A stretch of DNA of 36,881 nucleotides, from the NCBI GenBank assembly GCA_947453935.1, contig CANGJU010000012.1:1-36881 (forward strand), in the 5' to 3' direction. A program made the position numbers and the translations under genes. The notes under the pieces are model-generated. The model had not been told where the DNA came from and made no database searches. It saw only the letters and a list, made by a program, of their open reading frames with translations. The stretch is from Bacteroidota bacterium. Lineage in GTDB: Bacteria > Bacteroidota > Bacteroidia > AKYH767-A > OLB10. Positions 7,228 through 10,903 of this stretch are shown piece by piece. Position 1 is the stretch's first letter; each line of letters begins with the position of its first letter.

Positions 7228-8048
7228 TGTCGCGATTAAAATCGATTGCTGTTAATGATACCATCCTGCATTATGCTGATGCAGGTCCTTCGAGTGCCCC
7301 AACATTTTTATTTGTTCATGGAGCAGCAGGCAGTTGTAACCATGTAGCATTTTTACGTGATTACCTGATTCGCGATTTTCGTGTGATCAGTTATTCGCAG
7401 CGATTTCATTTGCCAAATCATCCAAATCCTACTGGTGAGTATGGAGCGGATATGCATGGCCGCGACCTTGTTGCGTTGATGGAGGCGCTGGAGTTGAAGG
7501 ATGTAGTTTTATTAGGACATTCCTATGGTGGATTAGTTGCAGCGAGTGCAGCTATCCTGGCGCCGCATTTAATCAAGCATTTATTTCTTGCAGAAGCAAC
7601 GCTGCCTTCGTTGGTAAATGACAATCCAATTTATCAGGAAATTATCAATATCAGAATAAACGCTTTTGAAAATATTAAAGCGGCATTTGAATCAGGAGAT
7701 CCCGCTCTTGCTGTTAAATTGTTATTAGATTATGCAATTGGTGGCAAAGGATTTAATACACTTCCGGAGGAGATAAAAAAAGACATGATTGCAAATGCGA
7801 GTTCACTCTTTCATTTAGTGTATCAGCAAGCACCACCAACAATCGCATCAGCAGAAGCACTAAAAAAATTAGCAATGCCTGTTACATTGTTGATAGGCGA
7901 AAAGTGTACTCCAATGTATAAAGCAGTTGCAGAGGAATTACAAAAAATACTTCCAACGGCACAACAAAAAATATTTGCAGGCGTAGCGCACGATTTAATT
8001 TTTGAAGCTGCAGAAGATTGCGCATTTGAAATAAAAAATACAATTTGA
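7227..8048 (+). CDS. Alpha/beta hydrolase-fold protein
   Basis: The 273-residue protein has no signal peptide. It shows the oxyanion-region motif FLFVHGAAGS near residue 27, the nucleophile elbow GHSYGG with Ser99, and a late GVAHD motif that supplies the catalytic His. At the strand where many relatives have GExD, this protein reads GEKC, so the acidic triad member is either moved (for example to the neighbouring Glu) or absent. The start overlaps the stop of the upstream aldo/keto reductase by one base, implying one operon and perhaps consecutive steps on one substrate. Esterase, lactonase or C-C hydrolase activity are all possible; sequence alone cannot choose. Confidence 0.85.
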   Translation: MSRLKSIAVNDTILHYADAGPSSAPTFLFVHGAAGSCNHVAFLRDYLIRDFRVISYSQRFHLPNHPNPTGEYGADMHGRDLVALMEALELKDVVLLGHSYGGLVAASAAILAPHLIKHLFLAEATLPSLVNDNPIYQEIINIRINAFENIKAAFESGDPALAVKLLLDYAIGGKGFNTLPEEIKKDMIANASSLFHLVYQQAPPTIASAEALKKLAMPVTLLIGEKCTPMYKAVAEELQKILPTAQQKIFAGVAHDLIFEAAEDCAFEIKNTI

Positions 8049-8086
8049 TTGCCTTTCTAACGTTAAGTATATACGAAAGAAAAGGG

Positions 8087-8122
8087 GCAACTGGATGGAT
8101 TAAAAGTTGCTTTCTTTTTTTC
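8087..8122 (+). terminator. Intrinsic terminator after the hydrolase gene
   Basis: GCAACT (8087-8092) pairs with AGTTGC (8105-8110) across a 12-nt loop and is followed by TTTCTTTTTTTC. G-U pairs can extend the stem. It sits about 40 bp after the hydrolase stop and separates this operon from the nrdA leader. Confidence 0.7.
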
Positions 8123-8240
8123 TAAATAAGATAATTTTTCAAGTAAAAAAGCTTTTTCGCGAATAAATTTTGCAACCGCTATTTTGTTGAAAAATGCAGT
8201 CAATTGTGGATAAATAGGGCTTGGGAATGAGCATATCTTT

Positions 8241-8374
8241 AACTTGATTTGTAACCGGCTACAGCAGTCGGACCCGGAAACGGGAAAGCGCTGGTTTTCA
8301 AACTCAAATCAGTTTCTAGAACACTTAAATAAGGCAATAAATAGTTGTCAGCGGAGTCGTCGCCTCTTTTAAGT
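8241..8374 (+). promoter_or_regulatory. Structured 5' leader of nrdA (candidate cis-regulatory RNA)
   Basis: Two clear fold units lie 60-200 nt before nrdA. In unit 1 the nested stems are TGATTTG (8245-8251) with CAAATCA (8305-8311), extendable past one bulge by AAC/GTT; ACCGGC (8254-8259) with GCTGGT (8290-8295, one G-U); and CCCG/CGGG (8273-8284) closed by a GAAA tetraloop. In unit 2, ACTTAAA (8323-8329) pairs with TTTAAGT (8368-8374) and AGGC (8332-8335) with GCCT (8362-8365). The rest of the leader, to 8437, is A-rich and looks unstructured. Arms this consistent argue for selection on RNA structure. I could not match it to a riboswitch class I know. Ribonucleotide reductase control is the natural role. 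Confidence 0.55.
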
Positions 8375-8437
8375 CCGGAAAAAACAAAAGAGTTTAGTTA
8401 AACAACAATAACCACAATCTAAAAACGCTTTAAACGT

Positions 8438-10903
8438 ATGTTCGTAATTAAAAGAGATGGTAAACAGGAAACAGTAAAGTTTGACAAAATTACTGCCCGT
8501 ATTCAGAAACTTTGCTATGGTCTTTCACCAGACCATGTTAGTGCACAAATAGTTGCACAAAAAGTAATTGAAGGGGTATTTAATGGTGTTACCACTACTG
8601 AGCTGGATAACCTTGCTGCTGAAACAGCTGCCTCTTTAACTACGCGTCACCCTGATTTTGCGCAACTTGCATCGCGCATCGCGGTATCGAACCTACATAA
8701 GAATACTAAAAAAGGATTCACGGAAACAATGCGTGACCTTTATACTTTCATCGATCCAAAAACTGGAAAGAATGCTTCATTAATTGCAGAAGACGTGATG
8801 CAAATAATTGAGAACAATTCAGATCTTTTAGATTCAAGTATCATTTACGATCGTGATTTTGGATATGATTATTTCGGTTTCAAGACTTTAGAAAAATCTT
8901 ACCTATTAAGAATCAACGGAAAAGTAGTTGAGCGTCCGCAACATATGTTAATGCGCGTTTCAGTAGGTATTCATAAAACGGATGTAGAATCAGCTATTCA
9001 TACTTATAACTTAATGAGTGAGCGCTGGTTCACACATGCAACACCAACTTTATTCAATTCTGGTACTCCAAAACCTCAACTAAGTTCTTGCTTCTTATTA
9101 CAGATGCAAAATGATAGTATCGATGGAATCTACAATACATTAAAACAAACAGCTCAGATTTCACAATCGGCTGGTGGTATCGGACTAAGCTTACATAATA
9201 TCCGCGCTACGGGTTCTTATATCCGTGGAACAAACGGAACAAGTAACGGAATCGTACCGATGTTACGCGTGTTCAATGATACTGCTCGTTACGTAGATCA
9301 AGGTGGTGGAAAGCGTAAAGGTTCTTTCGCAGTTTACTTAGAGCCTTGGCATGCAGATATTTTCGAATTCCTTGAGTTAAAGAAAAACCATGGTAAAGAA
9401 GAATTACGTGCGCGTGATTTATTCTATGCTCTTTGGATCTGCGATTTATTCATGAAGCGTGTGAAAGCAGAAGACCAATGGAGTTTGTTCTGTCCGAATG
9501 AAGCACCAGGATTAGATGAGTGCTATGGAGCAGAGTTCGAAGCTTTATATACGCGTTATGAATCAGAAGGCCGTGCAAGAAAAACAATTCCTGCTCGTGA
9601 ACTTTGGACAGCTATCTTAGAATCGCAAATTGAAACGGGTACTCCTTATATGTTATACAAGGATGCTTGTAACGAAAAGAGCAATCAGAAAAATTTAGGT
9701 ACAATCAAGAGTTCAAACTTATGTACGGAGATTGTTGAATATACAGCACCAGACGAAGTTGCAGTTTGTAACTTAGCTTCTATTGCTTTACCTCGCTTCG
9801 TTATTAACGGAAAGTTTGATCACCAAAAGTTATTTGAAATTACTTACACTGCTACGAAGAATTTAAATCGTATCATTGATGAGAACTATTACCCAGTTGT
9901 TGAAGCTCGTAATAGTAATATGCGTCATCGTCCTATCGGATTAGGTGTGCAAGGATTAGCAGATGCATTTATCATGATGCGTTATCCTTTTGAAAGTGAA
10001 GAAGCAAGAACGTTGAATCGTGAAATTTTTGAAACGATTTACTACGCAGCTATGACCGCTTCTAAAGATTTAGCGAAAGTAGAAGGAACGTATTCAACGT
10101 ATGAAGGATCTCCAATATCTCAAGGTATCTTCCAATTTGATATGTGGAATGTAAAACCAACAGATCGTTGGGAGTGGGATGTACTTCGTGAAGAAGTGAA
10201 GAAATATGGTGTGCGTAATTCATTGTTACTTGCTCCAATGCCAACAGCATCTACTTCTCAAATCTTAGGTAATAACGAATGTTTCGAACCATATACAACG
10301 AATATTTATAACCGTCGTGTGTTAAGCGGTGAGTTCATTGTGGTGAACAAGCATTTATTAATGGATTTAGTGCGTTTAGGATTATGGGATAATTCAATGA
10401 AGAACAAAATCATTTCTGCAAATGGTTCAATTCAAAATATCCCTGAAATTCCTCAAGACATTAAAGAGCTTTACAAAACTGTTTGGGAAATTAAACAACG
10501 TACCATCATCGATATGGCTGCCGACCGTGGTGCTTATATCTGCCAAAGTCAGTCGTTGAATTTATTTATCGCTGAGCCAAACTTCGCTAAGCTTACATCA
10601 ATGCATTTCTACGGATGGGAGCGCGGCTTGAAAACAGGTATGTACTATTTAAGAACAAAACCTGCTGCATCAGCAATTAAGTTTACTGTCGATAAACAAT
10701 ACGAAGCAGCGCCAGTTGCTGCTGAAGTAGCATCGATAAATACAGAAGCAATGGTTGTTACTGCAACAAGTACAGTTCCTGAAACTCCATCATCAACAGC
10801 AAAACCAGTAGCAGATGATTTCACAACTGACTATGTAAATGCTGCTAGTGAGATCTCTTGTTCATTAGATAATCCAGAAGGTTGCATTAGCTGCAGCGGA
10901 TAA
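8438..10903 (+). CDS. nrdA: Ribonucleoside-diphosphate reductase, class Ia alpha subunit
   Basis: This 821-residue enzyme makes dNDPs from NDPs. Residues 1 to about 90 are an ATP-cone, the allosteric activity site. The active-site cysteines are C218 (LSSCFL) and C615 (NECFEPY), which form the redox pair, and C429 (SNLCTE), the thiyl radical site, with N427 and E431 beside it. The C-terminus ends in a flexible Ala/Thr/Pro-rich tail carrying CISCSG, the thioredoxin-exchange CxxC. Length fits the NrdA family. The beta subunit gene nrdB, usually adjacent, is not present on either side, so it must lie elsewhere. The gene is preceded by a folded leader and followed by a strong terminator, so it is probably monocistronic. 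Confidence 0.97.

Follow-up and report, generated by a model that had tools for sequence, protein, structure and literature searches.

The supply of dNTPs for DNA synthesis is set by ribonucleotide reductase, the genes for which are controlled in many bacteria by NrdR. In Mesoplasma florum a 2'-deoxyguanosine-I riboswitch is reportedly the RNA leader upstream of ribonucleotide reductase, a placement shared by the leader described here. A search of the literature on nrd leader RNA or NrdR in Bacteroidota returned nothing specific, and NrdR itself (TIGR00244) was found in 0 of 42 genomes of the order studied here, with nine control genomes positive and the assembly containing our locus only ~80% complete. 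An nrd promoter under NrdR control, which supposes that the genome encodes NrdR, is thus unsupported in all 42. On comparison with relatives, nrdA at this locus is preceded by a conserved, nrd-specific and structured leader, which we read as a new cis-regulatory leader confined, within this group of Bacteroidota, to the genes for class I ribonucleotide reductase.

The window (the whole stretch of DNA analysed, 36,881 nucleotides) is contig C12 of a 2.23-Mb assembly, ~80% complete, from an uncultured Bacteroidota lineage, for which the nearest named relatives were assembled from lake and groundwater metagenomes. The preceding open reading frame ends at 8048, leaving a 389-base intergenic gap before the gene:

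8438-10903, forward strand: nrdA, large subunit of class I ribonucleotide reductase with an ATP-cone (Pfam PF02867, PF00317, PF03477)

The genes nrdA and nrdB are separated in genera g1, g2 and g7. In the rest of the family nrdB immediately precedes nrdA, so that the leader is to be sought there upstream of nrdB. Inspected by eye, the separate nrdB of the three genera (L045-L050, L053, L054) appears to come after the end of an rpoD-like (sigma-70) gene, and its leader is short and lacks the nrdA RNA element. Three genomes with nrdA gave no match to PF00268 (nrdB): G000 and G002, and G004, which is estimated to be 99% complete; an assembly gap is possible.

Upstream of nrdA, positions 8220-8251 read CTTG-N20-TTGATTTG, a predicted Bacteroidota promoter that can be set against the sigma-A consensus of the phylum, TTTG / TAnnTTTG (PMC7366714):

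8220-8223, forward strand: predicted -33 element CTTG, fitting the TTTG / TAnnTTTG consensus with a 20-nt spacer
8244-8251, forward strand: predicted -7 element TTGATTTG, which the first-pass annotation drew as the 5' arm of an outer stem

Before nrdA, each of the three genera keeps the -33 region as CTTGGG. The identical -7 sequence occurs upstream of nrdB in G023 and G011, where the leaders are unrelated, and the promoter therefore accounts for its conservation. The -7 box of Flavobacterium psychrophilum spans -12 to -5 (PMC9723704); by analogy, the nrdA transcript is predicted to start near 8256. The annotation had placed a multi-stem RNA at 8241-8378 and closed it with the pairing UGAUUUG/CAAAUCA. 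Because the 5' arm of that stem is the -7 box, it is probably not transcribed, and the stem is abandoned here; the conserved RNA, 8254-8372, does fall inside the proposed interval, but 8241-8251 belongs to the predicted promoter and is probably not RNA.

Close to the promoter, on its 5' side, is a direct repeat with a 20-bp period, TGTTGAAAA-N11-TGTGGATAA (8185-8213):

8185-8193, forward strand: putative paired upstream operator, copy 1, TGTTGAAAA, in direct repeat with copy 2
8205-8213, forward strand: putative paired upstream operator, copy 2, TGTGGATAA, in direct repeat with copy 1

The window has one occurrence of the pattern, where 0.02 would be expected. Of 125 nrd upstream regions from Bacteroidia, a set that contains close relatives, 60 had paired TGTTNAWAA repeats with a period of ~20 bp, against 0.25 expected in shuffles. 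The strict pair has one copy in the window's whole assembly and a single copy in three of the four other genomes searched; it adjoins nrdA or nrdB, on the upstream side, in two genomes of the same genus and in G015. We regard the repeat as a strong candidate site for binding by an nrd transcription factor. Read from the opposite strand, copy 2 gives TTATCCACA, which matches a DnaA-type box; we take this to be a resemblance only. The nrd-specific RNA leader and this separate, putatively nrd-specific DNA operator offer two testable candidates for the control of dNTP synthesis.

For the RNA itself, ten distinct nrdA leaders from the three genera were aligned by hand (alignment A3), and RNAalifold recovered four helices, P2, P3, PX and P4. 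The elements of the leader, in order, are as follows:

8252-8372, forward strand: whole leader element, matched by covariance model R1 (83.6 bits, E = 7e-17; the window is among the training sequences)
8254-8259, forward strand: P2, 5' arm ACCGGC, pairing with 8290-8295, at the predicted 5' end of the transcript
8273-8276, forward strand: P3, 5' arm CCCG, the GNRA-capped stem of the first-pass annotation
8281-8284, forward strand: P3, 3' arm CGGG, with the same support as the 5' arm
8290-8295, forward strand: P2, 3' arm GCUGGU, opening the conserved stretch GCUGGUUUUCAAACUCA (8290-8306)
8296-8306, forward strand: linker UUUCAAACUCA, unpaired in the consensus fold and nearly invariant in A3
8312-8322, forward strand: PX hairpin GUUU-CUA-GAAC, from pairing in A3
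8323-8329, forward strand: conserved ACUUAAA, whose counterpart in order-level leaders is UUUAAGGA
8333-8338, forward strand: P4, 5' arm GGCAAU, part of an order-wide 3' module
8344-8349, forward strand: P4, 3' arm GUUGUC, with the same support as the 5' arm
8353-8367, forward strand: box GGAG-UCGUC-GCCUCU, 12-13 nt 3' of P4

The A3 fold paired 88.1% of cells against 71.1% when shuffled, with covariation of 0.575 against 0.229 +/- 0.029 shuffled and at most 0.157 in slid registers, and 11 of 21 pairs changed on both sides; these pair counts are inflated, as A3 (like A4 and A5) was made by hand around the helices, and the full element is carried by only about seven independent lineages. Since A3 was fitted in this way, positional tests that need no alignment were added. 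The spacing between P4 and the box is fixed (Fisher p = 2e-9 over 25 leaders, three of them mis-anchored, an error that biases against this result). P3 was paired in 97.5% of A3 cells with double changes in all four of its pairs, and its positional test gave a modest p = 0.005; the corresponding values for PX were 95%, all four pairs and a weak p = 0.013. P2, the 5' arm of which straddles the predicted transcript start, was paired in 90% of cells, but its changes within A3 were one-sided only; among 24 leaders, hairpins directly 3' of the -7 box are commoner than expected (Fisher p = 3.7e-4). Judged by these comparisons, P4 is the best supported helix, P3 comes next, and P2 and PX are likely.

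The claim of a structured leader upstream of nrdA is therefore borne out by conserved helices with covariation, and the check that had been proposed for it came out positive: in relatives the leader of nrdA is conserved and carries compensatory changes. The five-helix fold as first drawn gives way to a different one when the ten leaders are compared, and three helices missing from the original list, P2, PX and above all P4, are better supported. Two of the helices first drawn, the hairpins CCGGCU/AGUCGG and GAAAGC/GUUUUC, showed covariation of 0.120 in the ten relatives against 0.123 when shuffled, the first being paired in only 62% of cells, and we drop both. The GNRA-capped CCCG-GAAA-CGGG fared better as a stem (P3), which is kept through complete sequence change, but its GAAA loop is not conserved. 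A seven-base-pair stem ACUUAAA/UUUAAGU holds in the window's own genus (7/7 and 6/7 pairs) but shrinks to 1-4 of 7 in the other two genera. A kissing pairing of a CAGC loop with GCUG is visible by eye in the window but was set aside, as the CAGC loop is not conserved. The complementarity noted at the outset is present in the sequence, but folding of the single sequence is nothing unusual: 8241-8378 reaches -33.1 kcal/mol (z = -0.98), a stability matched by 28 of 200 shuffles.

Of 61 genomes searched at the DNA level, 11, counting that of the window, had a match upstream of nrdA, and a protein search for nrdA confirmed the leader in g1, g2 and g7. Model R1, like the other covariance models calibrated only briefly, matched all 12 genomes of these genera, each of them strongly and at a single place (E 5e-16 to 3e-9), always upstream of nrdA. 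It had no credible match in 30 further genomes of the order or, the window's own apart, in 295 genomes drawn from the class, and it found the leader in no further genus. Weaker R1 matches were set aside: L155/L156 overlap the start of an alkaline-phosphatase-like open reading frame, and L153, L154, L157 and L158 (E > 0.1 per genome) and L209-L211 (class-wide) are at chance level for the number of genomes.

A simpler leader of the same layout was found upstream of nrdB or nrdBA in family f3 of the same order: a 5'-terminal hairpin, UUUAAGGA, hairpin P4, 12-13 nt, and AAUCGUC-RCCUCUAA. Leaders built in this simpler way stand before nrdBA operons throughout the order; in them the 5' half shows no sequence conservation and is just a plain hairpin. 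Ten of these nrdB leaders, taken without the window's family, were used to build the order-level model R3, in which covariation was 0.933 against 0.294 shuffled. Among the order genomes R3 gave ten matches at E < 0.01, all of them nrdB leaders, and its best held-out matches in 232 kb all lay in nrd leaders (L174, L077, L048/L074, L044, the window and L185). The match in the window, at 8323-8369, scored 14.1 bits with an E-value of 2. No single E-value thus ties the two leader types together; what does so is their position, their layout and the way the matches rank. Weak class-wide R3 matches (L212-L226) have no nrd gene nearby and are at chance level, and a further model of mixed 3' modules, R2, was too weak for new members and mostly returned its own training sequences. 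As expected of an orphan cis-regulatory leader, compensatory changes occur in the helices of the hand-made alignments, and within the order the matches fall on one gene class, R1 finding nrdA only and R3 nrdB leaders only.

Taking these data together, we consider it reasonably probable that the nrdA mRNA begins with a structured, untranslated cis-regulatory leader, encoded by 8254-8372, in which control is exerted at P4 and the box. Transcription would start near 8256, and P2 would thereby form the 5' end of the message. Some signal would then alter pausing, read-through, or the access of a protein or ribosome before polymerase or ribosomes reach nrdA. Least certain is the site of control, which we place at P4 together with the box that follows it after 12-13 nt; pausing, attenuation or protein binding might each act there. 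The geometry here resembles that of a hairpin-stabilised transcriptional pause, with 12-13 nt from the hairpin to UYGUC, GG at -11/-10, a pyrimidine (C) at -1 and G at +1. A terminator stands at the same spot in other families, which favours a role in transcription elongation, and the presence of either an AdoCbl riboswitch or a terminator in the nrd leaders of other families suggests that these leaders have repeatedly been used for control.

Protein binding fits almost as well as a role in elongation, and we hold it as a tentative possibility that the leader is a protein-binding site, recognised at P4 and the box loop by NrdA itself, acting autogenously, by an RNA-binding regulator, or by a ribosomal or elongation factor. 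The short hairpin with a conserved flank, AUCGUC-RCCUCU, at fixed spacing and the restriction of the module to nrd genes would suit such a site; against this, no candidate protein was identified, and the box is less conserved in several families.

It is unlikely that the leader is a metabolite riboswitch of an undescribed class, with P2/P3 and GCUGGUUUUCAAACUCA as the aptamer for a dNTP, deoxynucleoside or related compound and P4/box as the expression platform. The gene context is fixed, relatives use an AdoCbl riboswitch in their nrd leaders, and the three-genus set has nearly invariant unpaired and helix-adjacent stretches; for that form, with its nearly invariant GCUGGUUUUCAAACUCA and ACUUAAA, a riboswitch is possible. 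However, the sequence of the 5' half is not shared across the rest of the order, where it is only a plain hairpin, which argues against an order-wide aptamer; there is no terminator or anti-terminator, the scan for intrinsic terminators giving 0 terminator-like sites at 8000-8500; and the leader is found at nrd genes only, with no transporter or salvage gene among its contexts. Nor does it belong to a described class. Rfam 15 (purine/2'-dG, SAM, TPP, Flavo-1 and others) gave 0 matches in the window at gathering thresholds, a permissive scan of 8050-8460 at E <= 10 returned only unrelated chance families, and the cobalamin riboswitches RF00174 and RF01689 matched neither the window at gathering score nor the leader at E <= 10, the same scan finding a cobalamin riboswitch in L088, L118, L089 and L095; the earlier statement that the leader fits no known class thus stands. 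The more ambitious proposal, that a new riboswitch class sensing a deoxynucleotide or related signal replaces NrdR in an order that lacks it, we regard as more doubtful still.

Ribonucleotide reductase messages might alternatively carry this leader for stability, P2 shielding the 5' end from 5'-end-dependent decay in the manner of the 5'-terminal hairpin of ompA-type stabilisers and the remainder being passive. P2 does lie at the predicted 5' end in most leaders although the sequences are unrelated, but the conserved linker, ACUUAAA, P4 and the box are left unexplained, and we think this improbable as the whole account. Conservation at the DNA level only, with promoter and operators under selection, a neutral leader and helices arising by chance, would accord with the strongly conserved upstream operator and promoter and with the ordinary single-sequence fold; given the compensatory changes, the fixed P4-box spacing and the held-out R3 matches, we give it little credence. 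Leader-peptide attenuation, reported in flavobacteria (PMC9723704) and suggested here by a long leader before a biosynthetic gene, is most improbable, as 8255-8437 contains no ATG or GTG, most relatives have none, the relatives show no conserved open reading frame, and a terminator is lacking. A reading frame through the box (I/V-V-A-P) was rejected, as it has no start codon, its frames end soon, and it is not kept in L020, L023 or the window.

Returning to the favoured reading of a structured leader controlled at P4 and the box, its closest counterparts in gene context and leader position are the cobalamin and AdoCbl-II riboswitches (RF00174, RF01689) at nrdBA of related Bacteroidota. AdoCbl riboswitches lie upstream of nrdB in the nrdBA leaders L088, L118, L089 and L095, and in L101, by eye, the aptamer is lost and the 3' part kept. 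Both these riboswitches and the leader of the window would control class I ribonucleotide reductase by RNA, but the latter is quite different in fold and size and has no Rfam match. It likewise differs from the 2'-deoxyguanosine-I riboswitch, being without the purine/2'-dG three-way junction and, again, a match in Rfam. Flavo-1 (RF01705) and the unnamed structured 5' leaders of flavobacteria (PMC9723704) are, like the present one, Bacteroidota leaders of unknown function; our leader, unlike Flavo-1, matches no Rfam family, and the leaders named in the accessible portion of that study include no nrd gene.

Five nrdBA leaders from other Bacteroidia families (L078, L085, L188, L181, L184) carry a terminator-like hairpin followed by U5-U6, 53-80 nt before nrdB, and on this evidence are likely transcription attenuators. 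Their hairpin is G+C-rich, occupies the position of P4 and is followed by CGCC or RCCUCU; in place of the U5-U6 that comes after it there, leaders of the window and its order contain a spacer of 12-13 nt and AUCGUC. In pause sites of the his/trp type, a stabilising hairpin stands 11-13 nt upstream of GG...YG, as P4 does relative to the box, but such sites are without the wider conserved box RCCUCUAA of the window leader, and the likeness is one of geometry alone. The nrd leaders of Bacteroidia would thus seem to hold different RNA devices at the same place: an AdoCbl riboswitch, a terminator, or a hairpin with its box.
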